Virus record (IMG/VR): IMGVR_UViG_3300033153_013470
Span: 1-21,339 of that record
From: a virus
DNA length: 21,339 bases
Reading direction: 5' to 3' (one strand)
In this document: in pieces, positions 2,767 through 21,166 of the stretch
Layout: the number at the start of each line of letters is the position of its first letter
Position numbering within the stretch: the stretch's first letter is position 1
Translations under genes and position numbers: made by a program
Notes under the pieces: generated by a model
What the model was told of the DNA's origin: nothing
Seen by the model: only the letters and a program-made list of their open reading frames with translations
The model's database searches: none

Positions 2767-5700
2767 ATGGCTTTTCATAACATAAGCTGTCCTTCTGTTT
2801 TTCAAGACTGGACATTATCTAAAAACAAGAGAGTATATTTTGATTCCTCTAAAAATTCTTATGTCTCAAGCATTATAACAGCCCATGAGGTAATAAAAGA
2901 TGAAAATTTAGGCAGCACATCCGCAGAATATTATAGAGATTTTATTATTGATGTTTTAGAAGAGGTGGCCAAAGATTACGACGATAAAATAATAGATGAT
3001 TTGGTGTTAAAGGTTTCTTTACTCTCACATTATATTGACCCCTCTCCATATATAAAAGAAAAAATATTATTAGGCATCGCAGAAAGCGAGATAGGGGATC
3101 TACCAGATAAAAAATTATCAACGACAGACATAGAAAATACAACAGAAACTATTTTTAGTGTATCTACTTTTTTTACAAGAATAGAAAGTGTTGCTAATAA
3201 GTTTATAGAATATCAAAAATCATATATAATAAATCTCCATAAAGGCTCCGGAATAGTTTATTCCAATTTAGATTTTCAGATGGAATCTGAAAAACTTTAT
3301 AAATTTAGAAAAAGCTTAAATGACTTAATCGATGCCAACGGTATTAATATCAGTGAATACGACACACTTAACATGGTTTTTGATGAAAATTTTATTCCAA
3401 TAAGAATTCTACTATCAAGCGTCTCAATTGAAAATGAACCATTGACAAAACAATTTAAAGATTTTGGAAATTCGGATCCACAAAATAGAAATATAACGAT
3501 GTTTTTTGTGTATAATCTTTCTAACTTGGAAAAAGATACAAAGAGGAATAATTTTACCTATCAAGACATAATTGATTCATATTTTTTTATTAAACCAAAA
3601 ATTTCCACCTCCAATATTAATATAATAAAGAGGGCAGACAATTCTGGCGCGGCCTATTCTGTTTCCAATAGCGATACAACAAAGAAATTTGATTCATTAA
3701 GTAATATATCGCAACGCAGTATCCCCTTACTAAAAGATGAAATCTTATCTTCTGTGAGCAACTCACCCTGCTTAACCCCCGAAGATAGAAAGAAATTAAA
3801 TGAAAAATTAGAAAGAGAATCCGAAAAGAAAGCAACCTTTGCTCAACAATATACAATGGCGGTACAGGATACCTTTTTTGTTAGTTTGCCCGAAGTTTTA
3901 CAAAAAGTAGCCAAAAAACAAGGAGACGAAGCTCTTCAAGAGTTGGGAAAAAGCTTTCTAAACCGCTTGGGGTTGTGCGGAATCGGAGATTTGACTTCTT
4001 TGGTTGTTAATACAGTATTTTCTTATTTAAAACCTCAAGAATATGCTGATGAATTATCCAAATGTGCAATAAAAAATTTAAAAAATGAAAATCTTTCGAA
4101 ATTAGAAATAGAATTAATCAGACTTGGGAAGAATACGGAAGTTTTAGAAAGGTATCGAGGCTTTGTGGGAGATACTATCCCTCCGTGGAAGACCGCCGGC
4201 TATGTTCCTCCTGATTATTATAAAGATTTAGAAACAGATGATCCTATAATAGAAGCATACACATTTAAAATTGGAGGCGCTGTTGATGATACAGAGATAG
4301 ATTTTAGATTTTCGGCATATAAAGACTCAATCGTTGCCTCCGTTAACGCGCAAGACTTACTAAATACATTAACTAACGTATTCCCAGATGAAATGGGATG
4401 GTTAAGCTTCTTTACTGACTTAACTAAGAGTATTCTTGATAAGTGCAAAGCTCCAAAGCTCCACGCCCAGTCTGGAGCTACGGCTAATTGGTGCCAAGGA
4501 CGCTTTCAATTACCTAAACTAAAAGAACTTCCAATTGCAGTTAGTGGTCTTACTCCCAAGGCGTCAGTAATTACGGGAATAATAGTAGAAGAGGTAAAAA
4601 GTCTGATAATCACTCTTACTGTGAAATTAATTGTTGCGACAATGAACCAATTATTTCAAATAATATCTGCGGGTGTCTCTGGAGATACAAATTATTTTAA
4701 GGAAAATGAATACATTCCAGATTTTTTTCAAAATGAAGATTATTTGCAAAATGCAATTTTATCTAAATCTGGGAAAAGCAAAAAGAATACAGATAATATC
4801 AATAAAGCAGTCAAAGAGGTAGCACAGAACAACTCACCAGGAATTAGCATAGAAATAGATAACGAAGAAGTTGATAAATTTTTAAAAGCTATTTCTATTG
4901 CGTTAGGAGAATATGAAAAAATAAAGCTTTTAAAGGGCGTAGCGGGAGATACTACTTTTCAAAAAGTTGAAGGGCTATTAGAAAGCGGAGATTTTCCTGG
5001 ATTAAGACAAATTTTAAAAAATTATGGAGATATAGAGGCATTTTTCCTGGAATTGGGAAAAATGATAGATGTATCAAGCTTGGAAAAAGCATATTTTGAT
5101 GGTTTATACAAATCACAAGGCTCCTTTTCTTTTTGTGAAGACGAAGATTTCGATTCGCTATCTCAGGCATATTCTCTAAATAAGCCTGGGATTACTGACG
5201 AACAAATAGAAAAAATGAAGGAAACCCTCAAGGACATCCAGCGAGATAAAATATGTTTTGCAGTGGATATGATTGGCGATCCATCCGGTCCAATTATTGG
5301 AAAAATTTCAGAAATTTTATCTGATAAAAATGGCCCGGTCCATAAAAAGATGAATGAACAACAGGCCGAATATCATAATTTAGTCGTTGAAAGCACTGTA
5401 AACACCCTAAAAGAGCTATATTATGCTGATTTGTTCAACTATTTGGGTCTTTTAGATTTAATTCTAAGTGTAAATGGAAATAGTTATGGCAATACTATTG
5501 CAATGATAAATAATTTAGTGCTTTCATTGAGGGCTTTCCCTGGCGCAACTATCGGTACCCTTAGTCCTGACAAATTAGAAGAAGAAGCAAAGTCAAAAAT
5601 AAAAGTTTTGCTTATATATAAAAAACAATTAGAACTTAGTGAAGCAGATTATAATCCATCTCTTAATAAAACAAATATCGAAGTTAATTATGATGGAAAA

Positions 5701-7335
5701 AGTATATCTTATTTGGACAATGGCACAATCCGGATTAAAAGTGGTACCACCTCCATTTTGGATATAAAATCAAAGGAAACCACAGATTCTTTTGAGCCGG
5801 GATCCCAAAAAATTGCCGATCTTTTATCTGACTCTCTTTCTTTTCTGAGCGAAGCAGATAGAAGTACAATTATAATTAATTATATAAACGATATTCAGCC
5901 TTCAAACGTTAAAAAATATTATAGTGAAATTAGAGATAATTTGGAAAATAAGGGGTGGTTTTATCTTGGGTGGAAAAAAGATATGGGGATATATGACACA
6001 TTAAATAATTCCAAAGACTTGATACCTCTTCTTTTAGGATCTCCGAGTACTTCAGCCAAAGACCTTTATAAGAATCTGGACGAGTTACCTCCGATAAAAA
6101 ATATATTTAAAGCAAAGAAAATTCCATTTAATGATAGGTTAACAAAATCGGAAACAGTACAGAGATATTTGTATTTTAATTTAATAGTTCGAGTTATAAT
6201 TTCGGAAATGTGTTGGAAAGCAACTGAAATGTTCGAAACATATTCCCCAACTCTCTTTTCAGAAGGCGATATAATATCTTCATATATATATGAAAAATTA
6301 ATTCAAAATATGGATGAATATGGATTTGGTTCTGATAAAAATAAATTATCTTTTTTTGAAGATATGACTCAGGTGTATTTAAAATCTCTCGAAGCAGAAG
6401 CGTATGAAATAAAAAACAGTAATACACTACAAAGTATTGATAATATAAATGATCAAATTGCAAGTTGGATTAAGGGACAAACTACAAATGATAGAATAGA
6501 TTTTTTAACTGATTTGGAAGGCGATATGAAAATTGTTATAACCGATATGATTGAAAATATTTTAGAAGATTGTATAGAAAGTTTTCAACTTGGATTGCGA
6601 GCAATGGAGGGTTTCACGCGCCCGATACCAGCATATTCTTCTATAAAAAATTATGTTTTAGAGAATTCTAGTTTAATGGGGGATTTGAAAGATGTCTTTC
6701 CAGATGTCAATGATATTGGGAAAGTTTCTCTTTCGTCAGATTTTGTTGGAGTTCGTTTGGAAAAATATATAAAAATATTTTATAAAGATGGTACAGAGAG
6801 TGTAAAAAAATTAGAAGATTTTCAAAAAACGATTGCAGATACCAGCCTAAATGGCGATATAAGTGATTTTTACGATAGTTGGAAATTTGGTATAAGAATT
6901 TCTTTAATTGGCCTGTATGATCTTTTGGGAGTTAGTTCTGATTTATTTAGCTTGGAAGATCGAGATTCAGAAAAGGCTTTCCTGTTAAAAAGCAGCGATC
7001 CAGTATTTAATTTTTATTTATTTCCATTGGTGAATTATGAAAAGCAAATTGACGATCAAAAAATAAGTTCATCTATTATTAATGGTTATAATAATGAAGA
7101 AATGATAGATAGTTTGTCAAAAACTGACAAATTCAATAATTTTTATTATAAGGGAATGAATATAGAAAATTTATTGTCTTTGAACACTATTTATACTAAT
7201 GAAAACTTTTCCGATCTCTTAGAAACTGGCGATGATATTCGAAAATGGAAGGCACTTGATTTGAATAATCGCTCAGGAAAAGCATTTATTAATTCTAAAA
7301 AATATTTGTTTAAATCATTGAAAAAGGAACTTTAA
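2767..7335 (+). CDS. Very large virion protein of unknown family, baseplate region
   Basis: A 1522-residue open frame with no internal break; its ATG is 4 bases after the preceding stop and AGGA lies at 2751-2754. It is rich in Lys, Asn, Ile, Asp and Ser and looks mostly helical, with long charged helices (about 330-400 and 430-460). Two more hydrophobic stretches stand out: around 399-418 (NRLGLCGIGDLTSLVVNTVF) and about 601-635 (VITGIIVEEVKSLIITLT continuing to QLFQIISAGVS). Either could be an amphipathic or membrane-inserting helix. Cysteines are few and cluster in short motifs (SPCLTPED, LGLCGIG, ANWCQG). There is no signal peptide and no enzyme motif I recognise. Its place between spike and gp25 suggests a virion part: a large baseplate or hub protein, or, less likely, a tape measure, which usually sits further upstream and is more uniformly helical. 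The DNA looks more A/T-rich than the 3038-residue gene downstream, judged by eye only. Confidence 0.75.
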   Translation: MAFHNISCPSVFQDWTLSKNKRVYFDSSKNSYVSSIITAHEVIKDENLGSTSAEYYRDFIIDVLEEVAKDYDDKIIDDLVLKVSLLSHYIDPSPYIKEKILLGIAESEIGDLPDKKLSTTDIENTTETIFSVSTFFTRIESVANKFIEYQKSYIINLHKGSGIVYSNLDFQMESEKLYKFRKSLNDLIDANGINISEYDTLNMVFDENFIPIRILLSSVSIENEPLTKQFKDFGNSDPQNRNITMFFVYNLSNLEKDTKRNNFTYQDIIDSYFFIKPKISTSNINIIKRADNSGAAYSVSNSDTTKKFDSLSNISQRSIPLLKDEILSSVSNSPCLTPEDRKKLNEKLERESEKKATFAQQYTMAVQDTFFVSLPEVLQKVAKKQGDEALQELGKSFLNRLGLCGIGDLTSLVVNTVFSYLKPQEYADELSKCAIKNLKNENLSKLEIELIRLGKNTEVLERYRGFVGDTIPPWKTAGYVPPDYYKDLETDDPIIEAYTFKIGGAVDDTEIDFRFSAYKDSIVASVNAQDLLNTLTNVFPDEMGWLSFFTDLTKSILDKCKAPKLHAQSGATANWCQGRFQLPKLKELPIAVSGLTPKASVITGIIVEEVKSLIITLTVKLIVATMNQLFQIISAGVSGDTNYFKENEYIPDFFQNEDYLQNAILSKSGKSKKNTDNINKAVKEVAQNNSPGISIEIDNEEVDKFLKAISIALGEYEKIKLLKGVAGDTTFQKVEGLLESGDFPGLRQILKNYGDIEAFFLELGKMIDVSSLEKAYFDGLYKSQGSFSFCEDEDFDSLSQAYSLNKPGITDEQIEKMKETLKDIQRDKICFAVDMIGDPSGPIIGKISEILSDKNGPVHKKMNEQQAEYHNLVVESTVNTLKELYYADLFNYLGLLDLILSVNGNSYGNTIAMINNLVLSLRAFPGATIGTLSPDKLEEEAKSKIKVLLIYKKQLELSEADYNPSLNKTNIEVNYDGKSISYLDNGTIRIKSGTTSILDIKSKETTDSFEPGSQKIADLLSDSLSFLSEADRSTIIINYINDIQPSNVKKYYSEIRDNLENKGWFYLGWKKDMGIYDTLNNSKDLIPLLLGSPSTSAKDLYKNLDELPPIKNIFKAKKIPFNDRLTKSETVQRYLYFNLIVRVIISEMCWKATEMFETYSPTLFSEGDIISSYIYEKLIQNMDEYGFGSDKNKLSFFEDMTQVYLKSLEAEAYEIKNSNTLQSIDNINDQIASWIKGQTTNDRIDFLTDLEGDMKIVITDMIENILEDCIESFQLGLRAMEGFTRPIPAYSSIKNYVLENSSLMGDLKDVFPDVNDIGKVSLSSDFVGVRLEKYIKIFYKDGTESVKKLEDFQKTIADTSLNGDISDFYDSWKFGIRISLIGLYDLLGVSSDLFSLEDRDSEKAFLLKSSDPVFNFYLFPLVNYEKQIDDQKISSSIINGYNNEEMIDSLSKTDKFNNFYYKGMNIENLLSLNTIYTNENFSDLLETGDDIRKWKALDLNNRSGKAFINSKKYLFKSLKKEL

Positions 7336-7338
7336 AAT

Positions 7339-7737
7339 ATGGCATATGGATTTTCTCCAAAATTACCACTAACAGTTGATCAAATAGACGGTCCTTATAA
7401 ACTACTTAAAACTGTTAAGGCAGTTGGTGCTCAAAATTTAAAGATGTTAGTTTTAACAAATCCTGGAGAAAGAATCATGAACCCAGATTTCGGAGTCGGT
7501 ATAAATAAATATCTTTTTGAACAAGAAGCGGACTTTGCGTCAGGAGCAGTTAAAGAGCGGATTTATAATCAAACATCAAAATATTTACCATATATTAATT
7601 TAACAAATGTTGATATATTTCCAAGACAAGATCTTTCCAATGCGTGGGGAGTAAGAATAACATATTTCATTCCAGGTTTTACTACAACAGAAGAATTATT
7701 TTTAGATTTATTTTCTGATGGAAGTGAAGGAATTTAA
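7339..7737 (+). CDS. 25: Baseplate wedge protein, GPW/gp25 family
   Basis: This 132-residue protein is of the usual length for T4 gp25 and P2 gpW. The family signature is plain at about residues 33-62: an aligned helix-strand (AQNLKMLVLTNPGERIMNP) followed by DFGVGINKYLFEQ. The P-G-E-R and N-P-D-F-G-x-G cores are what identify gp25/TssE. The C-terminal part gives strands ending in a hydrophobic, acidic tail. In contractile systems gp25 sits in the inner wedge, contacts the first sheath disc and the gp6/gp7 bundle, and helps start sheath assembly. The ATG is 3 bases after the previous stop, with AAGGAA at 7324-7329. The next gene, gp6-like, follows at 13 bases, the normal W-J order of contractile tails. 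This is one of the two firmest assignments in the window. Confidence 0.95.
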   Translation: MAYGFSPKLPLTVDQIDGPYKLLKTVKAVGAQNLKMLVLTNPGERIMNPDFGVGINKYLFEQEADFASGAVKERIYNQTSKYLPYINLTNVDIFPRQDLSNAWGVRITYFIPGFTTTEELFLDLFSDGSEGI

Positions 7738-7750
7738 GCGGGGAAAATAG

Positions 7751-9544
7751 ATGGCTAAAAAGAAAGTTGCAATAGATTATACTTCAAGAGATTTTAATTC
7801 AATAAAACAATCATTAATTGATTATACAAAAAGATACTATCCAGAAGTTTATCAAGATTTTAATGAAGCTTCTTTTGGCTCTCTTATGATAGACACTGTT
7901 TCATATGTTGGTGATGTATTATCTTATTATTTGGATTATCAAGTTAATGAGTCTTTTTTACAGACTGCTTTTGAAAAGAAAAATATCATCAATTTGTCAA
8001 GACAGTTGGGATATCGATTTCAAGAAGTAGCGTCCTCGGCCGGCGAAGTATCTTTGTATGTTTTAATTCCTGCAAATGAATTTGGATTGGGCCCAGATAC
8101 AAATTATTATCCAATTATTAGACAAGGAACTACGTTCACTACCGATCAAGAAAATAATTTTATATTAACAGAAGATATAAGATTTGACGATCCGGCAAAT
8201 GAAATAGTTGTTGGAAGAATTAATCCCACCAATGGTCTGCCCACTCACTATGCAATCAAGGCAACAGGAAAAGTTATTTCTGGAGATATAAAGATCCTGC
8301 GCCGCACTATTGATGATTTTGTAAGATTTAGAAGATTGGATCTAGACATTTCAAATATAGTAGAGATAATATCCGTAGAGGATACGGATGGAAATAATTA
8401 TTACCAAGTTAGTAATTTGGTTCAGAATGTTGTTTATAAATCTTTTCCAAATAAAAGTAACAATTTTGATACGGTAAAAGAAATATTGAGGCCAATCGAA
8501 GTACCTCGAAGATTTATTTTTGAATTTGATGGAGAAAATTATTATTTGCAGTTTGGTTTTGGCTCCGAGGATGAATTAACAATAAATCCCGTAGCAGATC
8601 CTTCTTCGGTTTCATTAAAACTATATGGCAGAGATTATGTTAGCGAGCTTGATTTGGATCCCTCAAAATTAATGTCCAGTGATACTCTTGGAATATCTCC
8701 TTCTAATACACAATTAAAAATAACATATAGAAGAAACACTAGTTCTAATCCAAATGCTCCATCTGGAGCAATAAGAAATATTTCCAACATGATTATTGAT
8801 TTTGTAGACTTGATTTCTCTCGATGCGGCAAAAACGAATGCAGTTCGTTCTTCTTTAGAGGTTAAAAATTCTGAACCTATAGTTGGAAGCTCTGTTTCTC
8901 CATCTAATGAAGAGATAAAACAAAGAGCAATTTCTTATTTTGCTACACAAAATCGTGCCGTCACTTTAAATGATTATGAAGCAACAACATATGCGATGCC
9001 GGGGAAATATGGTTCAATTACTAGATGTAATGTGATTGTTGATCAAGATTCTTTTAAGAGGAACTTAAATTTATATATTTTAACGTCTGACAAAAATAAG
9101 AAGCTCGTTGTTGCTAATAGCGTTTTGAAAGAAAATTTAAGATTTTGGATATCAAATTACAAAATGATTAATGACACAATCGATATTGTGGACGGCAAAA
9201 TAGTGAATATCGGTATAAATTTTGAAATAATCAGCGATCCAGATTTTAATAAAGTAGAAATTTATTCTAAATGTATAGATGTGTTAAAAGAAAGGCTTCA
9301 AAATCCACTACAAATGGGTGATCCATTTTATTTGACAGATATTTATTATGAATTAAATAGAATTCGCGGCGTCGTCGATACTCAAAATGTATTTTTAGTC
9401 AATAAGAAAGGCGGCATTTATTCAGACGTTGGATATAATATAGCTGAAAATATATCTCCAGACGGTAGATATTTGGCGTGTCCATCAAATGTATGTTTAG
9501 AAATTAAATTTCCAGATGTTGACATCAAGGGTACGGTTAGATAA
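7751..9544 (+). CDS. 6: Baseplate wedge protein, gp6 / baseplate J family
   Basis: This 597-residue protein has both hallmark regions of gp6/gpJ. Residues 10-90 carry YTSRDFNSIKQSLIDYTKRY, then FGSLMIDTVSYVGDVLSYYLDYQVNE, TAFEKKNIINLSRQLGYRF: the conserved N-terminal helix bundle in which a large assembly domain is grouped around paired wedge copies. Residues about 387-490 carry the J core (EEIKQRAISYFATQNRAVT, then DYEATTYAMPGKYG, NLYILTSD and a run of strands). T4 gp6 is about 660 residues, so this is close to full length. In the baseplate gp6 dimers link neighbouring wedges into a ring and the gp6-gp7-gp25 core transmits the trigger for contraction. The ATG has a GGGGA Shine-Dalgarno at 7740-7744. 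The stop TAA shares one base with the next ATG (TAATG at 9542-9546), suggesting re-initiation. Confidence 0.95.
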   Translation: MAKKKVAIDYTSRDFNSIKQSLIDYTKRYYPEVYQDFNEASFGSLMIDTVSYVGDVLSYYLDYQVNESFLQTAFEKKNIINLSRQLGYRFQEVASSAGEVSLYVLIPANEFGLGPDTNYYPIIRQGTTFTTDQENNFILTEDIRFDDPANEIVVGRINPTNGLPTHYAIKATGKVISGDIKILRRTIDDFVRFRRLDLDISNIVEIISVEDTDGNNYYQVSNLVQNVVYKSFPNKSNNFDTVKEILRPIEVPRRFIFEFDGENYYLQFGFGSEDELTINPVADPSSVSLKLYGRDYVSELDLDPSKLMSSDTLGISPSNTQLKITYRRNTSSNPNAPSGAIRNISNMIIDFVDLISLDAAKTNAVRSSLEVKNSEPIVGSSVSPSNEEIKQRAISYFATQNRAVTLNDYEATTYAMPGKYGSITRCNVIVDQDSFKRNLNLYILTSDKNKKLVVANSVLKENLRFWISNYKMINDTIDIVDGKIVNIGINFEIISDPDFNKVEIYSKCIDVLKERLQNPLQMGDPFYLTDIYYELNRIRGVVDTQNVFLVNKKGGIYSDVGYNIAENISPDGRYLACPSNVCLEIKFPDVDIKGTVR

Positions 9545-11019
9545 TGACTATTAAAAAATATTTTTCAAATTCTGATAATACGATAACAAACGCGTTCAGG
9601 GCAAACTTGCAAACTCGCGGCACAGGCGCAAATATGGGCCTATCAGATGTCCTTGAGACCTTTTCTATTTACGGACAAGCTTCTTCCGGGTCTACTGAAC
9701 TTGAGAGAATACTAATCGAATTTCCAGTTAGTCAAATTACAGCAGATAGGGCGAGTAACATTATTCCGGCATCTGGCAGCGTTAGTTTCTATCTCAATAT
9801 GTATAACGCGCGCAGCAATCAAACATTGCCGCGAGAGCTTAAATTGGTAGTTCTTCCCATATCTCAATCTTGGCAAGAAGGAACCGGCTTGGATATGGAA
9901 GAATATAAGGATGTCACAAAGGGTAATGATGGCTCCAATTGGGTTAATGCAGGAAAAGCTGCCCCCTGGACAAAAGAGGGTGGTGACTATTTAACTTCTT
10001 CATATTCTCAAATTTTTCCAATAGGAAATGAAGATTTGGAAATTGATATAAGTGCACTTGTCGAAGATTGGATTGACGGAACAATTACAAATTATGGTAT
10101 CGGAATTCACCTAACGTCGAGCCAGGAGGCTTATTTTTCAAATTCTTTGGGTGCAGATGTTGGAAGTCAGTTATTTAATCCAAGCGGATCCACGGATACT
10201 TATTATACAAAGAAATTTTTTGGAAGAGGAACTGAATTCTTCTTCTCAAGACCAACAATACAGGCCCGGTGGGATTCCTCGATAAAAGACGACAGGGGAA
10301 ATTTCTATGCCAGTAGTTCTTTAGTGCCCGCAGTAGATAATATAAGAACACTTTATCTCTATAATGTAATAGGGGGAAGATTAAGAAATATCCCAGCAGT
10401 TGGAACCGGTGAAATTTATGTTAAAGTATATACATCAGCATCAGCAGGGACAGATTTAACCCCGACCCCTATAACAGGAGGTTATGTTTCACTTGGTATT
10501 TATTCGGCATCTTTCGCTTTAGACACGACCGCCAGTACAGTATACGACAGGTGGTATAGTTCTGGATTGTCGGATGTTTATCATACTGGGGCCTTTAATA
10601 TAAAACAATATGCAGCAAGCACATATAATCCATATGGAAATTTAGTGACAGCGCTTACAAATCTGAGACCGGTTTATACAACTTCCGAGACAGCAAGATT
10701 CAGATTTTATGAGCGACAAAAAGATTGGGCCCCGACTATTTACACAGTGGCCACCACAGTAACAGATACACTTGTTAATGAAAGCGCATCTTATCAAATT
10801 TATAGGGTAATAGACGAACTAGTTGTAGTTCCATATAATACGGGAAGTGATAGGGGAACACAAATGTCTTTTGATGTAAGTGGAAATTATTTTGATTTTA
10901 AAATGGATCTTCTAGAGGCTGGGTATTCTTATGGGATTAAAGTAGCTTATTACAATGAGACAGTTAATAGTTATGTCGAACAGCCTTACGAGTGGAAATT
11001 TAGGGTAGAAGAAGTATGA
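9544..11019 (+). CDS. DNRLRE-like beta-sandwich structural protein
   Basis: This 491-residue, strand-rich protein is low in cysteine and high in Ser, Thr, Tyr and Gly. The first half (about 1-240) looks like a DNRLRE (disaggregatase-related) domain. It has a strand ERILIEFPVSQI near 53-65 and a conserved-looking S-Q-S-W-Q-E-G-T-G at 107-115 followed by D-M-E-E-Y and GSNWVNA. The core motif DISALVEDWIDGTITNYGIGI begins at 168. The second half (about 245-490) is further beta structure, with repeated Tyr/Ser-rich strands, and may be one or two immunoglobulin-like or fibre-knob modules. DNRLRE domains are known mainly from secreted or surface proteins and are thought to act as carbohydrate-associated modules. 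Sitting between the J and I-like wedge genes and overlapping both (1 base and 4 bases), it is probably a baseplate-peripheral or fibre-docking protein. The domain call is by eye and needs a profile search. Confidence 0.65.
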   Translation: MTIKKYFSNSDNTITNAFRANLQTRGTGANMGLSDVLETFSIYGQASSGSTELERILIEFPVSQITADRASNIIPASGSVSFYLNMYNARSNQTLPRELKLVVLPISQSWQEGTGLDMEEYKDVTKGNDGSNWVNAGKAAPWTKEGGDYLTSSYSQIFPIGNEDLEIDISALVEDWIDGTITNYGIGIHLTSSQEAYFSNSLGADVGSQLFNPSGSTDTYYTKKFFGRGTEFFFSRPTIQARWDSSIKDDRGNFYASSSLVPAVDNIRTLYLYNVIGGRLRNIPAVGTGEIYVKVYTSASAGTDLTPTPITGGYVSLGIYSASFALDTTASTVYDRWYSSGLSDVYHTGAFNIKQYAASTYNPYGNLVTALTNLRPVYTTSETARFRFYERQKDWAPTIYTVATTVTDTLVNESASYQIYRVIDELVVVPYNTGSDRGTQMSFDVSGNYFDFKMDLLEAGYSYGIKVAYYNETVNSYVEQPYEWKFRVEEV

Positions 11020-14000
11020 GTATTAGAGACCTTTTTGATGGCGATGTTCCATACAAAATATTAGCCGAAGAGCCCTCTGATTTAAGACGAAATGGTGAAT
11101 CTCTAGATAATATAAGTGAGACTTTTAAAAATCGTAATCGTCTTATTCCACAAGTTGACTTTTCTGATCCTGAGAGTTTTGCTCGATATGGATCCGCTAA
11201 AACATATTATGAAGATGCTATAGCGAGGATCTATGAAGAATATCCCTACGATGGCTCTTCGAAAGAAAAGCAAAAATATTTAAACGAATCAATATATATT
11301 GATTTATATATTTTAGATAATCTTTACCCACGAAGAAATGGATATATTGAATTATCAGCAGATGGGTGGGGATCCACTGCCCCTGGCGGTTTCCCCAATG
11401 CATTAAACTATTATTATGGCCATCCTGTTGTTGATGAATACATCTATTTTGAAGGAGGGCCCCATACTGCTTCGGAAGGTATGATTGGAAAGACACTTAA
11501 TTCAACTTTTGATGATTCAAATGTTTATGATACCAACATATATGATGATGTTGGATACACCGGCAAAGGATCCAGAGAGAGTAATCTTAAAACCAATTTT
11601 GATAATGGAATAACTATTGAATTTTGGTTGAAGAAAGAAGGTGTCGACATAAATAAGACCCGAAAAGAAGTGATTTTTGACTTGTGGAATAACACAACGT
11701 CGTCGCTAGGATCTTATGGGAGAGTCACCCTTGAATTAAACGCCCTTGACTTGGTTACATCGTCTCCTCAACCATTTAAATTAACTGTTAGGTCTGGTTC
11801 TGATGGTTTCATGAATCAACCTTTCGGATCTTCCATCACCCTGACGACCCTGAGAACTTTTGGGCATTATGCTTTTAGAGTATATAATTCTGGATCAACA
11901 TTAAATACTGATTTTTATATAAACGGAGACCTGATAGAATCAACTTCATCCGGATCAAACCTTAATGAAATTACAGGCGCCCTGAATGCACAAATAGGCG
12001 CTCTTATCACATCTGCATCAAATGGAACCTCGGATTTTGCAGGTCGCGGATGGGGAAAACTTTCTGGCTCTGTTGATGAGTTTAGATTTTGGAAAGAGTC
12101 AAGAACCTCTGAAAACATTGGGCGAAATTGGTTCACACAAGTATATGGAGGGTCAAACACCGATATATCAAACGCATCTCTTGGTGTTTATTATAAATTC
12201 AACGAAGGAATCACGGGATATTCTTCTATTGACTCAACAATTCTTGACTATTCTGGCCGTGTTACGAATGGCGCTTGGACAGGATACACCTCAAATTCAA
12301 GAACAACCGCCTCCGCGATGGTCGAGGCAGGCGCCGCCCTATCTGAATTTAAAGATCCAATTATTTATTCAGAACATCCTAGTGTTGTAGTACTAAATAA
12401 TTCATTATCTGCCACCGGCAGCTATCATGATTACCAAAATTCAACATCTTTATACAATAACTTTCCCAATTGGATTATTGACCAGGATGCCGATGGCACT
12501 GGAAATATTAAAAAACTTACACAAATAATTTCAAGCTATTTAGACTCCCTTCATCTTCAAATTGAACAAGTTAACAAGATTAAAAATATAACATATGTGA
12601 GTGGTAGCGATAAACCACTTCCCTTTGCGACCGAACTACTCGAAAATGTCGGATTGGTGGCACCAGAAATATTTGCTGATGCCTCGGTGTTAAATCAGGT
12701 CTTTTCCAGAGATGAAAAAAAGGATTTTGCCGATACTTTATCTAATATTAAAAATATTATATATAAAAACATTTACAATAACATTGTATCCATCTATAAA
12801 TCAAAAGGAACATCAAATGCTTTTAGAAATTTGATTAGATGTTATGGAGTTAGTGAAGATTTAGTCAAAATAAATGCATATGCCAACAATTTAGTCTATA
12901 ATTTAAACGAAAATTATGATTTTTCATCAGCAAAAAAGAAATTTGTAGATTTTTATAGACCAGATACCTTTAATTCTACCATTTATCAACAAACGGCGTC
13001 CGGAAACCCAAACAGCGTATCTTTTATTTCGGCATCTGGCGGATCTCTGGAAGAATATACGTCTTTTACGACAGAAATAGAGGTAATTTTCCCCAAAAAG
13101 AAGTCAATAGACAATCTTACTTTCTATATAACTCCTTTTATAACCTCTTCGATATGTGGTTTTCATACTGCGGTCCCTTCAACACCCACAGACCTTACTT
13201 GGGCCTCCACAGACTACGATTTACAGGTATATTCAGTAAAACCAGATACAAATGGGAACACTAAAGATGGATATTTTCTAGTTACTAGCTCCTTTTTTGG
13301 AATTGAGCTACAGAGTGACACGATCAAGGACCTATACGATAATAAGAAGTGGAATATCGCGCTAAGGGTTAAATCATCGAAGAATCATGCAGATTTGGTA
13401 GACGGAACAACCTCAACAAACTATGATTTAGAGTTTTATGCCCTCAATACAATTGTGGATGTCCCTCAAGAAGAGATATCGTTGACAAGCTCCATCACTG
13501 TTGATGGAGAAAAGTACTTAACGGAGCCAAAAAGGCTCTATGTGGGCGCTCACCGCCAGAACTTCACTGGATCAACCATACATAGATCAGATATTAAAGT
13601 ATCCAGCTTCCGATACTGGATGGATTACTTAAATGACAGCGTAATTCAGTCGCACGCTAGAAATACCAACAATTTTGGTACCTATTCTCCTTATAAAAAC
13701 GCTTATAACTTTGTAACATCTTTAACTGGCACAAAAATTCCAGAAATTGAGACTCTTGCTCTCCACTGGAGATTTGATCAAATAAGCGCCTCGGATAATG
13801 GGGGGGGAGTACCAACTGTTCCCGATGCTGGCTTCAATGTATTGGATTATTCCTCCGGATCTTCGGAAATGGCTTCAAGATATTCTTGGTTGGGAAATGT
13901 TGTCGGAAAACAGCACTCTGGCCGGGCAGACTTCTTTTATCCAAATGATAATAAGGTAATAAATGTCGAATTTATACCAATCGCTAAACAAACCACACCA

Positions 14001-17000
14001 GAATTAGTCAATTCTTATGATATGGTGAAGGTTTTTAATATTGAGGACGAGCAACTCTTCACAAAGCAAACACGTCCGGTTAATTTTTATTATATGATAG
14101 AAAAAAGCATGTACCGAGCAATAACTGACGAGATTGTTAATTACTTTGCTACTATTTTGGATTTCAACAACCTAATCGGTGATCCCATCAACCGATACCG
14201 TCAGGAATATAAAAATTTACAGAAATTAAGGAACTTATTTTTCGAAAGAGTCCAAAATACCGTTGATATTGAAAGATATATCGAGTATTATAAGTGGATA
14301 GACGAATCTTTATCACAAATGTTAGTGAGTTTGTTCCCAGCCAGCGCCGTTAAACAAGATGGCATGCGTATAATGGTGGAAAGCCATATTTTAGAGAGAA
14401 ATAAGTATTGGAACAAGTATCCAACCCTTGATTTGAAGCGGGATGATCCAGAAGGGGGAATTCGCGGGATAAACGAGCTACTTTATGATTGGGAATATGG
14501 TCACCGCCCTATAAACGATTCCGAGAGTGAATCGTGTTTCTGGTGGAAAGAGAGAGCAGCAAGGGACAAAGCGCCTCTTGCAACCGGAGACGCAGGAGTC
14601 GATGCAGATAAAGAAAAGATCTTATCGGCCACATTATCGGTTTTGACAAGAAAATATTCCACTCCATTTAGGATGACAGTGGAAAGATCTGAAATTATAA
14701 GCACCGGTTTAACTTCAAATAACAATAATATCCGCTCTAATGTAAAAAGCGCGATACAATTTGGTAATTCTGCCGGAATTATCATCGAAGAATCACAAGT
14801 TAAAGGATTGAAGGTTTGTAGTGATATTTTAATTCCTAATTTGAAACAAAAATTCTCTTTCGAGGCAGCGAATCAAGATGATAGGGAGGGTTATGCTACT
14901 GGTGAGGGCGATCTACTTGTTCCATTCATTGCAGTTAGTTCATCTGTCACAACAGGGTACAATAATAAAATTAATGCGGATTTTAAGCCGGGATTTGGGG
15001 TAAATAATCTTCATATTGATTCATATATAGATTCCGAAGTCCCATTACAGGGCCCATTTACTGAGAAGTGGGTTGGTGGAAACCAACACAGACACGTTCC
15101 TCTTAATCAGGGTACTGATACTGTCACAGACCGACCCGAAGCCTGGGCATTAGAATTTCAGACCGGCCCAACGGCGATGAAATTTGTACATCAGCCTGTG
15201 AATTTGCCCCGAGCCGTGTTTTATCGAGATTTGGTAGCAAAAAGTCCACTCAATATCAAGAATATCAAAGATAACACGACTACTGGGGAACTTGGAAACT
15301 ATAGTCAAGATTATCAAATTGTTCAAACTTGCGGAAGAACTGAAAATAATTCCGCTTTTGTAAAAGCCGGCGGCTTTGAAGCTCCAGAAATTCCATCTCC
15401 CTATATTGCTGGATTAGATGATTACACAAAATTACAACGAGGAAGATCGGCGTGGGTCTTTGTTAATCGGTTTTCTTGTCCTGGAGATGCTTCCACAGCC
15501 GGTGATTCTGATGGCGGGCCTGGTTTAGATCCGGATGCTGCTGAATATTCTCTGTATAATAGCATTAATTATAGAAATTTCGCCGTAAGAGATCCTTATA
15601 GACTCTTGCTGGCATCGCATGTAAACCAATTTGGGTATTATGCCGATACATTTAACCTCGGTGTTGGCTCTTCTTCAGTTAATTCGCTGAATTATAATGG
15701 AACCGGCAGTATATACCAGGTTAATCGCAACCCGATCAAACAAATGAAGGAATCAGGCTCAACAACGATTACAGCATCGGTCTATGACAACTTTTATGTC
15801 CAGCACCCAATTCCGAGAACAGATTTACAGTATGCTTGGATAACAGCTTCGGCTATTTCCTATGATATATTTGGGTATCTTCCTTATAGCGGAGAGGGGG
15901 ATTTGGTGACATTCTCTTCTGCGAGTGATTTCGCTTCATATTATAATCCCGGACCAATTTTGGCATTTGATCAACAATTCGGAAAAGATAAAAGAGCATT
16001 CATTGTTGGCGGAGGAGTAAATGAAACAGAATATCTCCCGACAGTCTATAATTGGTTAAATTATAATGTCTATGAGCCGCTGGAATATTTGAATTCTTTT
16101 ATAGGATTCAGTCCAGAAGATGTGGACATTTCAAGTTCTTTAAATATCGATTTAATTTACTCTGGTTTATTTGCCTCCGGAAAGCCCTCTTTATTGAACG
16201 CCACTCTCCTCAAAAGAAACGGCCCATATCAACACCCCTCTTGGAAACAAACCCGAGGCTATGAAAATCCATTGGTTAAAAAGTGGAATAGCTCGAATAT
16301 AACTGCGTATAATTTGGAAGATGATAGCTTTAAATTGAGAGAAGATCCTCCCATCATTTCCAAATATAAGTCGCTTAGGCACATTTTAAAGGTCGCTAGA
16401 CAAGATATCGCAGGTGGCGCACCGGTGATAACTCTCGATGATTTAAAAATCTATAGTACTTACGGAAATGAAATAACACTATTTGCCAATAAACTCATTT
16501 CCCCAGATATTGAAAAATCAAATGAAAATATACAAACTTCTTATAATAAGATTTTAAATTTGTATATCAATAATGCCCTAGACGCTACATCTAATCCTGT
16601 ACAAGCACTTGTATATCTGGCTTATGAAGAACAAGTATATCCATCATCAATTAATTGCTATAGCAAAAGAAATAGAGAAAGAACTGGATATCAAAATACT
16701 TTTTGGAGAGATTCCAGATTAAATAGAACAACTCTTGGCGAATCTAAATTCGGAGGAGCAAATTCACAAGGATTTGTGGTTTCTCAAAGCGCCTGGGGAT
16801 TGGACACAGCAGAGCAATTTGGAACAGGTCTTTCGACATATATAGCTGAAAGCGCATCTATTGGCGCCGCAGGCGAGCTTCAAAATGACTATACGTTTGC
16901 ATATAGACTTATCGGAGGTCTCACAGGAGAAAGGAAAAATTTACGACCATCGCCAATATATGCAAGAAAACACACACTTGGATCTTGTTTATCTGTTATG

Positions 17001-20000
17001 GATCCCTTCGCAATCAATCAATGGATTGGCACAAAATCCCCTTGTAACCCCCCAGTGCCCGGCAGCCAAGAATGGCGATATGTGTCCGTTCTTACGGCTT
17101 CAATATATTTGGATCCCACCGAAGGCTTAGGTCAAGATTCTTGGCCTGGGGTTACGGAATTTAACGACCTTGGTCATGTTTCAATTTTTGGTGGTAATGC
17201 TAAATTTGAAGCACACGAACAAGCAGGTTATGTTGAGGATGGATCTTTTGTTTCTTCTCCTTCAACTCCTTTTTACGATAAATATGAATTATATAATCTT
17301 AATATGAGATTAAAAAATAAAGACTTGTCTCTTATTCCGGAATTTAGAATAAGTGATCATATTTCTAAATATTTAAATAACAGCAATGGTTGGCTCGCGA
17401 CGAACTCTTCACAGTTTTCAATTTTTGGAGTTAACGAGAATAATACTCAAACAGTTTTATACAAAAAAACAGATGGAAATGTCGCTTCGTATTCCACTCA
17501 AATCTCGGAAAACACCCCACAGAATAGTTCTGAAAATGAATTTTATAGAATTTACTCTTTCTCGGATTTTATGGAACATTTTGAAATTATTAATGACAAG
17601 CATGAGGATTTTGTTGGTGATGAATTTCCAAAAACCCTAACTCTTTCCTGTAAAGCATTAATGAAATTTATTCCTTATGATGGCTTTTACCCCGCTGAAA
17701 GAACTTTAGAGATAGCCGAAAAATTTAGAGATATTTATGAACCCGCCATAGAGGGATCTGAGACTTTTTCTGGCGATGACCAACATTTGAAGATGAGGCC
17801 AATAATGGCGCCCCTGTTTTCTCCCGGAATATTATATAACACAATTAAGTCTGGAATAGCAGTAGATTATCCAATTTATACTAGCTCATATGACCCCATT
17901 CATTATTATAATAATAGCGGCAACGCTACACCACCCGCACCGGAAGATTTTAGTGATTATTATGCAATAGGTACTGCAAGTGTAGATATCGGCCGCTGGC
18001 ACTTTAGAGTTCCATTTGAATCTATTTTAGAACCAGAAAGCCTAAATGGTTTGCCGATGCAGGATATGGAGCCCCACCCATCTTGCTCATTAAACGGCCT
18101 TTATTCAAAAATTAATACAACCGATAAGTCTACTAATGAGTATAAATTGGCTATTAATAATTTTTTAGGAGAGACAATAAAATTCTTCCTTAAGGACGGG
18201 GAACTTACAACTATACAAAGTCGTCAGGAAAATTATTTTAAAACGGTGAACTCCGCCGTCTCTTATGCAATGAGAATAAAAATAAGAAGAAGCATGACGG
18301 GGATAAAAAGAGAAACGTCCGAATGGGCAACTCCGCAGGAATATTTTTCAACAGAGATAACTAAGAATATAAATACCGACAACAATACTTTCACAGATTA
18401 TAGGATGGCAACATTAAATATGTACAGCCGCCCCACCGCATTTGGGCCCCCTGTTGCCGGAACCGGATCTTTTGGCGACGACGCCACGATTCCAGGCGGT
18501 AATTCTATGAATAATCCTAATTTTCTCGGCGCCGATGGCTTCTTCGCCACCTGCATTAGTACCACACCGGTGCAATGGATTTACGCGCCTCCGCGAGTAA
18601 ACGACGGACTATATGGCTACAATGTTTCACATACACCACCATATTATAGTGGGGAATCTTGGATAGATATTATTTATACTCCCACAGCAGGAGGAAAACC
18701 AACAATCGATGACATCCAAGCAAATTCAAAAATAGTTTGCTGGAGAATCGACGGGCTTGATCCACTCGCGTGGTCAAGTGGTGAAGATATTTCTGATCAA
18801 AAATTTCCAATGCATAGCTCAAGTGTTAACGAATATGCAATGCAACTTACTTCTTCTATAAATATCTTTAATAAGTTGTTTGTAGAATCTGCAACAGATG
18901 AAACACAAAAAAATCCAAGTTGGGCAATTCAGACAAAATTTGAAACCCCAATTTTGAATTTCGGCCCGTTTGGAGAGGCAAATTATTCAGATATTAGAGG
19001 GAATCATTATTTAGATAATATAACTCTCCCGACAACGAGTAGCGCTCCGTGGGAAGGGTACGGCGGACAAACAACGACTCCAATAGGTATGTGGCACCAG
19101 TTTGGATCTATACCCTCCGGAGATCAGGGAGTATATTTAGAAGTCGGTCCAATACCAACGCCATGGCTGAATACCAGAGCAACAAAGGGTGATATATCTA
19201 CCATATACGCCTCTATCGACCAAGATCAATCATTATCAGAGATTACTGGATTTACTGGAAAAATAAATAAGAAAAGTAAGACAATTGGAAAACTCGCAGA
19301 TTCAAAAACGGTTTATGAAGCCGTCGTTGCCGTCCCATTTATTGAGGGAGTACATTTGGCTGCAACCTCTCGCAAAATAACAGACAAAAATATCGGAAAT
19401 AGTTTGTTTTTTGAACTTCCTACTATTGCCTCGTTCGGCCCGGATACAAAAATTGAAAATAGAGATCCCAAAGGATTATTTCCATCTGGTACGAGTCAGG
19501 ATATTCTAAACATGGCCGATATGGTTTGGAAAAAATATGTTTTCCCTCCTCAATTTGATTTTATAAGAAATCCGTCCGCAAAACCGGTTGCGATGTATGT
19601 CTTCGAATTTGATCACACATTTGATAAAAATGATTTATCTTATATCTGGCAAAATATCGCTCCAAAGTTTGGGACACAATTTAAAGAGGCGACTGCAACT
19701 ATTTCTCATAAACTTTTAGGTAAGGAAATGTTGGACGAAATGAAAGATAAGGTAAAATGGATGGTATTCAAAGTAAAACAGAGAGCAGAAACTAGTTATT
19801 ATAACAATTTATTAACGAGACCCCCAGAAGATACTAATTCTGAAATAAATTATGGTTATAATTGGCCTTATGATTATTTCTCGATGGTTGAGTTTGCAAA
19901 AATAAATGCCACAGTATCGTATGGTACAGATCCCTTCGAGCCACTCGCTAGCGGAGTCCCCACTACTTCTATATCTAGTCCAACTTCTCAAGGCTCCCTC

Positions 20001-20132
20001 CCTCCATTGGCTGGTCAGGATAAGGGAAATACAAACAATACATCTACTAAAAATACTAGACAAGCAAAAACACAGGAACAAATAGGCGCCTCAATCGCAG
20101 CTAAAATAAAATTAGAGGATAAAAAGAAATAA
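11016..20132 (+). CDS. Giant baseplate protein with LamG domains and a tail-I (gp7/gpI)-like segment
   Basis: A 3038-residue uninterrupted frame; its ATG overlaps the preceding TGA (ATGA). Order seen: residues 1-185, an acidic Tyr-rich N-terminus; about 190-425, a LamG/concanavalin-like domain (ITIEFWLKKE at 199, VDEFRFWKESRT at 353, YYKFNEG and DYSGRVTNG after it). About 490-660 is helical and contains NIVSIYKSKGTSNAFRNLIR (KGT at 597-599), closely resembling the KGT-x-x-A-x-R signature of P2 gpI tail proteins, related to T4 gp7. About 685-935 is a second LamG-like lobe (RLYVGAH at 840, FRYWMDYLND at 865, LALHWRFDQ at 914). About 1040-1170 is long helices (NRYRQEYKNLQKLRNLFFER). Then come about 1700 residues of unassigned, mostly beta sequence, with landmarks HRHVPLN (1358), NRFSCPGD (1484) and QVYPSSINCYSKRNRERTGY (from 1873). 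About 2860-2975 has a helical end domain, then a Ser/Thr/Gly/Asn/Lys-rich tail (2979-3038). T4 gp7 is about 1030 residues, so this is roughly threefold larger. Role inferred: wedge core plus rim or receptor-binding modules. Confidence 0.8.
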   Translation: MSIRDLFDGDVPYKILAEEPSDLRRNGESLDNISETFKNRNRLIPQVDFSDPESFARYGSAKTYYEDAIARIYEEYPYDGSSKEKQKYLNESIYIDLYILDNLYPRRNGYIELSADGWGSTAPGGFPNALNYYYGHPVVDEYIYFEGGPHTASEGMIGKTLNSTFDDSNVYDTNIYDDVGYTGKGSRESNLKTNFDNGITIEFWLKKEGVDINKTRKEVIFDLWNNTTSSLGSYGRVTLELNALDLVTSSPQPFKLTVRSGSDGFMNQPFGSSITLTTLRTFGHYAFRVYNSGSTLNTDFYINGDLIESTSSGSNLNEITGALNAQIGALITSASNGTSDFAGRGWGKLSGSVDEFRFWKESRTSENIGRNWFTQVYGGSNTDISNASLGVYYKFNEGITGYSSIDSTILDYSGRVTNGAWTGYTSNSRTTASAMVEAGAALSEFKDPIIYSEHPSVVVLNNSLSATGSYHDYQNSTSLYNNFPNWIIDQDADGTGNIKKLTQIISSYLDSLHLQIEQVNKIKNITYVSGSDKPLPFATELLENVGLVAPEIFADASVLNQVFSRDEKKDFADTLSNIKNIIYKNIYNNIVSIYKSKGTSNAFRNLIRCYGVSEDLVKINAYANNLVYNLNENYDFSSAKKKFVDFYRPDTFNSTIYQQTASGNPNSVSFISASGGSLEEYTSFTTEIEVIFPKKKSIDNLTFYITPFITSSICGFHTAVPSTPTDLTWASTDYDLQVYSVKPDTNGNTKDGYFLVTSSFFGIELQSDTIKDLYDNKKWNIALRVKSSKNHADLVDGTTSTNYDLEFYALNTIVDVPQEEISLTSSITVDGEKYLTEPKRLYVGAHRQNFTGSTIHRSDIKVSSFRYWMDYLNDSVIQSHARNTNNFGTYSPYKNAYNFVTSLTGTKIPEIETLALHWRFDQISASDNGGGVPTVPDAGFNVLDYSSGSSEMASRYSWLGNVVGKQHSGRADFFYPNDNKVINVEFIPIAKQTTPELVNSYDMVKVFNIEDEQLFTKQTRPVNFYYMIEKSMYRAITDEIVNYFATILDFNNLIGDPINRYRQEYKNLQKLRNLFFERVQNTVDIERYIEYYKWIDESLSQMLVSLFPASAVKQDGMRIMVESHILERNKYWNKYPTLDLKRDDPEGGIRGINELLYDWEYGHRPINDSESESCFWWKERAARDKAPLATGDAGVDADKEKILSATLSVLTRKYSTPFRMTVERSEIISTGLTSNNNNIRSNVKSAIQFGNSAGIIIEESQVKGLKVCSDILIPNLKQKFSFEAANQDDREGYATGEGDLLVPFIAVSSSVTTGYNNKINADFKPGFGVNNLHIDSYIDSEVPLQGPFTEKWVGGNQHRHVPLNQGTDTVTDRPEAWALEFQTGPTAMKFVHQPVNLPRAVFYRDLVAKSPLNIKNIKDNTTTGELGNYSQDYQIVQTCGRTENNSAFVKAGGFEAPEIPSPYIAGLDDYTKLQRGRSAWVFVNRFSCPGDASTAGDSDGGPGLDPDAAEYSLYNSINYRNFAVRDPYRLLLASHVNQFGYYADTFNLGVGSSSVNSLNYNGTGSIYQVNRNPIKQMKESGSTTITASVYDNFYVQHPIPRTDLQYAWITASAISYDIFGYLPYSGEGDLVTFSSASDFASYYNPGPILAFDQQFGKDKRAFIVGGGVNETEYLPTVYNWLNYNVYEPLEYLNSFIGFSPEDVDISSSLNIDLIYSGLFASGKPSLLNATLLKRNGPYQHPSWKQTRGYENPLVKKWNSSNITAYNLEDDSFKLREDPPIISKYKSLRHILKVARQDIAGGAPVITLDDLKIYSTYGNEITLFANKLISPDIEKSNENIQTSYNKILNLYINNALDATSNPVQALVYLAYEEQVYPSSINCYSKRNRERTGYQNTFWRDSRLNRTTLGESKFGGANSQGFVVSQSAWGLDTAEQFGTGLSTYIAESASIGAAGELQNDYTFAYRLIGGLTGERKNLRPSPIYARKHTLGSCLSVMDPFAINQWIGTKSPCNPPVPGSQEWRYVSVLTASIYLDPTEGLGQDSWPGVTEFNDLGHVSIFGGNAKFEAHEQAGYVEDGSFVSSPSTPFYDKYELYNLNMRLKNKDLSLIPEFRISDHISKYLNNSNGWLATNSSQFSIFGVNENNTQTVLYKKTDGNVASYSTQISENTPQNSSENEFYRIYSFSDFMEHFEIINDKHEDFVGDEFPKTLTLSCKALMKFIPYDGFYPAERTLEIAEKFRDIYEPAIEGSETFSGDDQHLKMRPIMAPLFSPGILYNTIKSGIAVDYPIYTSSYDPIHYYNNSGNATPPAPEDFSDYYAIGTASVDIGRWHFRVPFESILEPESLNGLPMQDMEPHPSCSLNGLYSKINTTDKSTNEYKLAINNFLGETIKFFLKDGELTTIQSRQENYFKTVNSAVSYAMRIKIRRSMTGIKRETSEWATPQEYFSTEITKNINTDNNTFTDYRMATLNMYSRPTAFGPPVAGTGSFGDDATIPGGNSMNNPNFLGADGFFATCISTTPVQWIYAPPRVNDGLYGYNVSHTPPYYSGESWIDIIYTPTAGGKPTIDDIQANSKIVCWRIDGLDPLAWSSGEDISDQKFPMHSSSVNEYAMQLTSSINIFNKLFVESATDETQKNPSWAIQTKFETPILNFGPFGEANYSDIRGNHYLDNITLPTTSSAPWEGYGGQTTTPIGMWHQFGSIPSGDQGVYLEVGPIPTPWLNTRATKGDISTIYASIDQDQSLSEITGFTGKINKKSKTIGKLADSKTVYEAVVAVPFIEGVHLAATSRKITDKNIGNSLFFELPTIASFGPDTKIENRDPKGLFPSGTSQDILNMADMVWKKYVFPPQFDFIRNPSAKPVAMYVFEFDHTFDKNDLSYIWQNIAPKFGTQFKEATATISHKLLGKEMLDEMKDKVKWMVFKVKQRAETSYYNNLLTRPPEDTNSEINYGYNWPYDYFSMVEFAKINATVSYGTDPFEPLASGVPTTSISSPTSQGSLPPLAGQDKGNTNNTSTKNTRQAKTQEQIGASIAAKIKLEDKKK
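13800..13807 (+). repeat. Run of eight G inside the giant gene
   Basis: Eight consecutive G encode part of a D-N-G-G-G-V linker in the second LamG-like lobe. The reading frame is intact as given. Such a run stands out in an A/T-rich sequence and is a classic place for slippage or sequencing error. Confidence 0.85.
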
Positions 20133-21166
20133 TGCTTTTTTTAAATAAACAAGAAGAGGTTTTAGATATTCAATTAACTCCATACGGAAAACATCTTCTA
20201 TCTAGAGGAAAATTCAAGCCCGTTTATTATGCTTTTTTTGATGATAATATTTTATATGATTCTGAGTATGCCGGGTTTGAAGAAGATCAAAATGAAATTC
20301 AAGCCAGAATAAAAGATTCTACTCCTCAACTACAAGCACAATATAAATTTACTGGGAAGTTCGAAAAGACAATTGAGGTTGATTTTGGTACTGGCGATAA
20401 GTTAGTACCAACAATTCCGTCGATGAGGACCAGTCTAACAAGCGATTTAGGAAACTCCAAACCACTGGAAAATAAATATCCGGCCATTAATTTAAGATTT
20501 TTGAAAGGAGAAGCCAACTCTTATGACTTGTCATACAGGACAAAATTTGGTGATAAAATAATTCCACAAATTAATTTAACTTTGGAATATTTAATATATA
20601 TCAATGCTATCTCTCTCGATTCAACCGCAGAGATAGGAACACCAATGGATTCACACGATGCAGATGTATATTTTGAAGATCAGTTGTTGGATTCAAGTTT
20701 TTCTTCCCCCATAGCACAAGATGGAACCTTTTTGTCAATTGTCAACGATTATATATTGGCCGATATTGTTGAGGAGAATACTGATTTTAAAATGGAAAAT
20801 TTTAATATTGAAGTTTTTAAGGTTGTTACCAACCCACCGGAAGAAGAAGAACTTATTTCTTTAAGTTTTGCCAAGAATATTCAAGAAAAAATTGTTAATA
20901 ACATACTTTTAGACAGTCCAGATGAAGATGCAGATTTAGAGTTAGTTTTATGTCCTGATAATGTAGAATACTATTTTGATATTTTTTATGATCATGACAT
21001 AGACAGAGAATTAATCAGTAATTCTGTAAGTCTTTTGAGATCCGAGGGCTTTTATACAGATGAAGATTTTGTTTCAGAGGACAATCCCTTTGTGAGACTG
21101 GCAAATTCTGATATTTATGGAACAAATGTTACACCAGATGATATAGAAGATTGTGAAGGAGAATAA
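20132..21166 (+). CDS. Conserved-looking virion protein with acidic C-terminus, unknown function
   Basis: This 344-residue protein starts at an ATG sharing one base with the upstream stop (TAATG); GAGGA at 20115-20119 may serve as Shine-Dalgarno. The N-terminus is distinctive (LNKQEEVLDIQLTPYGKHLL, then RGKFKPVYYAFFDDNILYD) and reads like a conserved folded domain. The middle (about 90-200) is strand-rich with charged loops. The last 80 residues are strongly acidic (many Asp and Glu, few Lys or Arg), ending in DDIEDCEGE. There is no signal peptide, membrane segment or enzyme motif. I do not recognise the family. Being coupled to the giant baseplate gene and inside the late operon, it is most likely a structural or assembly protein, perhaps a connector between wedge and fibre; the acidic tail could mediate docking or metal binding. 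Function is inference from position. Confidence 0.85.
   Translation: MLFLNKQEEVLDIQLTPYGKHLLSRGKFKPVYYAFFDDNILYDSEYAGFEEDQNEIQARIKDSTPQLQAQYKFTGKFEKTIEVDFGTGDKLVPTIPSMRTSLTSDLGNSKPLENKYPAINLRFLKGEANSYDLSYRTKFGDKIIPQINLTLEYLIYINAISLDSTAEIGTPMDSHDADVYFEDQLLDSSFSSPIAQDGTFLSIVNDYILADIVEENTDFKMENFNIEVFKVVTNPPEEEELISLSFAKNIQEKIVNNILLDSPDEDADLELVLCPDNVEYYFDIFYDHDIDRELISNSVSLLRSEGFYTDEDFVSEDNPFVRLANSDIYGTNVTPDDIEDCEGE
21156..21161 (+). promoter_or_regulatory. Shine-Dalgarno for the last gene
   Basis: AAGGAG, one of the strongest sites in the window, ends 12 bases before the ATG at 21174. It lies inside the end of the 344-residue gene. The spacing is longer than ideal, but no better ATG is nearer. 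Confidence 0.6.

Follow-up and report, generated by a model that had tools for sequence, protein, structure and literature searches.

We analysed a giant gene in IMG/VR virus record IMGVR_UViG_3300033153_013470, a stretch of 21,339 bases (hereafter the window) that is a fragment of a genome. As the preliminary description of the window had it, a single uninterrupted frame at 11016-20132 encodes a protein of 3038 amino acids (aa), which is very probably this phage's version of the T4 baseplate wedge protein gp7. The frame overlaps the preceding gene by four bases and the following gene by one. The genes and segments concerned are:

7339..7737, + strand, gp25-like wedge gene (GPW_gp25, E 1.3e-8, 35 bits)
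7751..9544, + strand, gp6-like wedge gene (phrog_219, E 1.4e-24; family profile against T4 gp6, P 1.7e-8)
9544..11019, + strand, conserved 491-aa gene separating gp6 from the giant gene (order kept in 112 of 119 loci)
11016..20132, + strand, probable giant gp7-type baseplate wedge protein, 3038 aa (open frame; gp7-core profile)
11331..12344, + strand, LamG/pentraxin-fold domain, residues 106-443 (Laminin_G_3 over cut-off; model; structural alignment)
12345..12995, + strand, putative gp7 core, residues 444-660 (gp7-core profile comparisons)
12804..12827, + strand, KGTSNAFR, residues 597-604 (aligned with T4 gp7 STKG and P2 gpI KGT)
13053..14015, + strand, beta-rich second lobe, possibly LamG-like, residues 680-1000 (model; profiles, suggestive only)
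14016..14705, + strand, second conserved core segment, residues 1001-1230 (conserved in three of three named relatives)
14706..20129, + strand, variable, separable C-terminal part, residues 1231-3038 (no known domain found)
20132..21166, + strand, conserved 344-aa gene after the giant gene (conserved in relatives)

The giant frame is real and is a member of a large, widespread and unannotated family. Scanning IMG/VR with the window protein returned 38 loci, and a scan with an alignment of residues 450-690 found at least 477 relatives (80 of them kept for analysis) among 599 candidate stretches; among bacterial and archaeal genomes, two of 37 candidates were relatives. A tblastn search of INPHARED with residues 1-2995 matched no record. 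A hidden Markov model (HMM) of the family reaches the syntenic proteins of three named relatives: Microcystis phage Mel-JY01 (1336 aa), Flavobacterium phage immuto (1265 aa) and LR756508 (about 1400 aa). These are hypothetical proteins of half the length of the window protein, and all three share its gene order and both core segments. Complete frames number 75: 60 measure 2422-4217 aa and 15, including the three named relatives, 687-1951 aa. The motif K[ST]KGT could be sought in 121 sufficiently long family frames and occurs in 115 of them. The preliminary description had the giant gene follow gp25 and gp6, and both do lie upstream, but the 491-aa gene intervenes. All three genes precede the giant gene in the 112 loci with conserved order, and the remaining seven loci end at most 1.84 kb upstream. 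A sheath gene was detected in 12 of 16 family contigs at E <= 0.01 (six over the cut-off), and the tails of the family are thus contractile. Two contigs that carry the phage gene, L125 and L126, were assigned to metagenome bins, one of Flavobacteriales and one of Poseidoniales; their titles give a coverage of about 0.1, and they are probably mis-binned virus.

The assignment to gp7 centers on a segment around a KGT motif. The KGT-x-x-A-x-R segment placed by the preliminary description at residues 595-606 is present as KGTSNAFR at residues 597-604, and KGT occurs once in the whole protein. T4 gp7 matches phrog_2885 ('baseplate wedge subunit', 4179 positions) at a KGT-like motif, and this match, together with the annotation of Sf-CH8, led to a comparison with cyanomyophage gp7. 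We used a gp7-core alignment of 22 rows (15 from IMG/VR, and Sf-CH8, P-SSM2, S-SM2, P-HM2, S-SM1, phiM7 and T4), none of them a member of the giant family. Compared profile to profile with 106 family rows, this alignment gave P = 1.2e-6, whereas the control slices gave 0.84 (LamG), 0.68 (second lobe) and 0.24 (second core). Over 1769 frames, the gp7-core HMM made 74 matches at E <= 0.1, comprising 73 of the 123 family frames and T4 gp7, which is itself in the alignment, and no match in the other 1645 frames. At E <= 1, 101 of 106 matches were family frames, and 100 of these 101 cover KGT; the window protein was matched at residues 561-615 (E = 0.008). Furthermore, the HMM matched in seven of 14 whole family contigs (E 1.3e-6 to 0.0026), and by calculation from coordinates all seven matches fall where the giant frame has its KGT. 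No gene other than the giant gene scored as gp7 in these 14 contigs, whose completeness is not established. A profile of the N-terminal part of cyanomyophage gp7 matched family residues 540-640 with P = 2.9e-7, against 0.28-0.53 for four other slices, and at the same place T4 gp7 gave P = 9e-7 and gpI 0.0083. By these profile comparisons, residues about 540-640 are homologous to the T4/cyanophage gp7 core, and the specific, well-placed matches together with the gene order support the gp7 reading.

The preliminary description had proposed a gp7/gpI-like segment joined to LamG domains; the gp7 side of this proposal is supported through the family profiles, whereas the link to P2 gpI is weak. The family profiles appear to reach gpI weakly, and less strongly than cyanophage or T4 gp7: comparison with a gpI set gave P 0.02-0.04 with the KGT register correct, and an early comparison with five gpI sequences, too thin a set, gave P 0.063. 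The family-gpI, family-gp7 and gpI-gp7 alignments pair the same residues. Tail_P2_I (PF09684) had no match in the window and was over the cut-off in none of 16 family contigs. In a single-sequence scan it matched four of 106 family members at E <= 10 (best E 0.019) and seven members of each of two unrelated families, a signal not separable from background; the equivalent giant frames in LR756508 (E 0.024), the L126 genome (0.36) and the L032 contig (0.015) scored weakly, below the cut-off. The profile phrog_5726, which P2 gpI matches at 2.4e-44, was found in three of 29 family members (best E 0.043). No other gene scored as gpI in the 16 family contigs, and the rival gpI or gp7 gene for which the preliminary description had allowed was found neither there nor in the window, itself a fragment.

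We also examined the domains on either side of the core. Laminin_G_3, expected at residues 190-425, matched residues 196-368 in the slice 190-440 with 29.8 bits (cut-off 27.6) and matched 28 of 30 family members at E <= 0.1; it was unlisted in the whole-protein scan of the window protein. In a predicted model of residues 1-1200 (78 rows; predicted local distance difference test score, pLDDT, 77.9), residues 107-443 adopt a LamG/pentraxin fold, with Z up to 19.8 and 220 residues aligned at 3.1 A. With a clean HMM the first LamG domain was found in 120 of 120 family rows and was not detected in Mel-JY01, immuto or LR756508. The model shows the second LamG-like lobe of the preliminary description (residues 685-935) as rich in beta structure, but the assignment of this lobe to LamG is suggestive only. 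Profile comparisons gave P 0.015 against the first lobe and P 0.002 with the profile of the named relatives, suggesting kinship to LamG, and a PDB sequence search with the lobe gave no LamG. In immuto the second core segment starts 86 residues after the gp7 core and lobe 2 is absent, so that this lobe looks like an optional insertion. One relative (L012, 10001-21184) carries an extra LamG-like copy in its C-terminal part (residues 1614-1739, E 2.3e-7), and weaker copies are present there in several relatives.

Conservation was measured as median pairwise identity among 51 non-redundant rows including the window. Over aligned columns, identity was 0.473 for gp6, 0.444 for the first LamG domain, 0.475 for the gp7 core and 0.561 for residues 575-640; lobe 2 had 0.373 and the C-terminal part 0.27-0.36. 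The LamG domain thus changes about as slowly as the wedge, which makes a structural role likelier than a host-specific one. Most likely, the domain has a structural function in docking at the periphery of the wedge, and any receptor contact that the giant chain makes more likely sits in the variable 1800 C-terminal residues. As a whole, the giant protein most likely serves as a wedge scaffold of the gp7 type, with a structural LamG domain built in and a C-terminal part that is variable and separable.

Several observations weigh against this assignment. The match extends over a short stretch of about 55-100 residues, and Pfam and PHROGs scans of the single window protein, where the preliminary description had expected a direct library match, returned neither gpI nor gp7. 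The gp7-core HMM was silent in seven of the 14 family contigs and in the genomes of all three named relatives. Direct comparison of the family with a T4 gp7 set was weak (P 0.006-0.013), control slice 1-190 reached P 0.028 against gp7, and slice 440-1200 aligned elsewhere in the direct comparison. The core folded alone was poor (pLDDT 67.5) and gave no usable fold match; gp7 and gpI were not among the matches listed, a result that excludes nothing. Some loci are duplicates of one contig and the loci are related, such that rows and matches are not independent. Finally, with gaps counted as mismatches, the identity of the first LamG domain falls to 0.342, versus 0.467 for gp6 and 0.13-0.21 for the C-terminal part; some relatives carry insertions within the LamG domain. 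PDB sequence searches with the core, lobe and C-terminal profiles found no baseplate protein, and PF23786, without a match in the window or in 19 records including Sf-CH8 and T4, was uninformative. The KGT match might reflect local convergence, the protein being another baseplate part, for example a counterpart of the VrlC-type protein that a passage of PMC7029224 says replaces gp7. The shortness of the match, the lack of a solved-structure or library match and that statement on VrlC all favor convergence; however, the profile matches are specific and well placed, gene order is conserved, and Sf-CH8 and phiM7 have gp7 directly after gp6 with a VriC/VrlC gene further downstream, and we consider it very unlikely. 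That the long frame is an assembly artefact joining two or three genes is extremely improbable: the same parts are separate genes in some relatives, but the 60 complete frames of 2422-4217 aa come from many contigs, and these independent long frames contradict an artefact.

A different role for the LamG domain must also be weighed. The preliminary description had merged the contraction trigger and host recognition in one chain, with the LamG lobes binding host glycans. The LamG/pentraxin fold of residues 107-443, the further LamG-like C-terminal copies in some relatives such as L012, and the YHYH domain in cyanomyophage gp7 are consistent with such a role, as is a passage of PMC7029224 in which concanavalin A and YHYH domains, where they occur in structural proteins, count as putative receptor-binding domains. 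Against it, the first LamG domain is present in all 120 family rows and, in aligned columns, its conservation is close to that of gp6, which would not be expected of a host-specific part; structural contacts are another use of LamG folds, and glycan binding is not a feature of every LamG domain. The merger is therefore unsupported, and glycan sensing by the wedge chain is unlikely. A specific version, in which the LamG domain before the gp7 core is the receptor sensor and glycan contact would move the core, triggering contraction inside the wedge without relay via separate fibres, is quite unlikely. Should the LamG domain turn out to sense the host, a single chain would give access to both recognition and trigger. 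Fibre genes were sought among nine downstream proteins of relatives, none of which had a Pfam match at E <= 0.01.

Returning to the wedge-scaffold interpretation, the giant protein and the gp6-like and gp25-like products would build the wedges of the baseplate of a contractile tail. Passages of PMC3004832 describe T4 gp7 as present in six copies and, together with gp8, as a platform for gp6, with a domain A that swings by about 45 degrees as the hexagon converts to the star. By analogy with T4, the giant protein would take the place equivalent to gp7 in the baseplate of its family: one chain may be present per wedge, its core may bind the gp6 dimer, and the protein may help to pass the conformational change of the baseplate to the sheath.

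Giant gp7 proteins with an added domain are already known from cyanomyophages. Their gp7, named 'baseplate wedge initiator' in P-SSM2, S-SM2 and P-HM2 and otherwise in Sf-CH8 and S-SM1, resembles the window protein in being giant, in having a homologous core and in following gp25 and gp6. By record coordinates it measures 5195 (P-SSM2), 4156 (S-SM2), 4454 (P-HM2), 6180 (S-SM1) and 4878 aa (Sf-CH8). The preliminary description had stressed that T4 gp7 and P2 gpI are far smaller, and at 1032 and 176 aa they are, but with cyanomyophage gp7 larger than the window protein the argument from size fails. The cyanomyophage core lies near residue 200, whereas that of the window protein lies near residue 600, and gp6 and gp7 are adjacent in cyanomyophages, whereas the giant family has one extra gene between them. 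T4 gp7 shares the KGT-like motif (T4 residues 732-752) and its position after gp6, and differs in its core near the C-terminal end; in the much smaller P2 gpI the KGT segment aligns in the same register. The YHYH domain was found in cyanomyophage gp7 in three of three proteins scanned, P-SSM2 to residue 4404 only, and gave no significant match in the giant family (best E 0.18); conversely, the giant family's LamG domain had no significant match in cyanomyophage gp7 (best whole-sequence E 0.016, S-SM1). In these three proteins, at L323:1956-16589, L404:11992-25203 and L405:11995-24462, YHYH lies near residues 1235-1355. Passages of PMC7029224 state that pelagi- and cyanomyophages lack T4 Gp7 and seem to have VrlC in its stead; the GenBank gp7 names and the T4 gp7 match (P 9e-7) speak against this for cyanomyophages. 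The gp7 of A-1(L) in a passage of PMC10966104 is a neck protein, unrelated to wedge gp7.

New in the giant family are the use of LamG as the added module, the position of this domain ahead of the core and the additional gene that separates gp6 from gp7; new as well is a proposed function for a widespread family left hypothetical in public records, including those of the cultured phages Mel-JY01 and immuto. Literature searches, in which subscription journals were thinly covered, brought up no description recognised as a LamG-bearing gp7. The comparison suggests that gp7 is a conserved core that takes quite different modules, LamG here and YHYH in cyanomyophages.

The flanking genes are also shared. 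The 491-aa gene is present in Mel-JY01 and immuto, its conservation equals that of gp6, and its Mel-JY01 counterpart has a sub-threshold CBM96 match (E 5.5e-5). The first 45 residues of the 344-aa gene product match the next gene in the same two phages. An identity of either gene as gp8 was unsupported, with only three gp8 sequences compared. Upstream of the wedge genes lies an M23 peptidase gene (432-1802; residues 297-405, E 3.5e-16), whose product is probably a tail-associated cell-wall enzyme. A 1522-aa gene at 2767-7335, without family matches in Pfam or PHROGs, precedes gp25, and related frames are present in only part of the loci.

Residues 1231-3038 form a separate gene, split off near residue 1230, in L008, L090 and L097, and the split lies further downstream in L049, L056, L066, L117, L118 and L123. 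Neither part of this region was found in L069, and a search of the flanking sequence in the three named relatives did not find it. Several frames replace the single giant frame in L095, L075 and L051, whether through fission, introns or errors of assembly. Within the variable part, window positions 17166-20045 (residues 2051-3010) hold nearly invariant islands, including an NWPYD motif near the end of this region.

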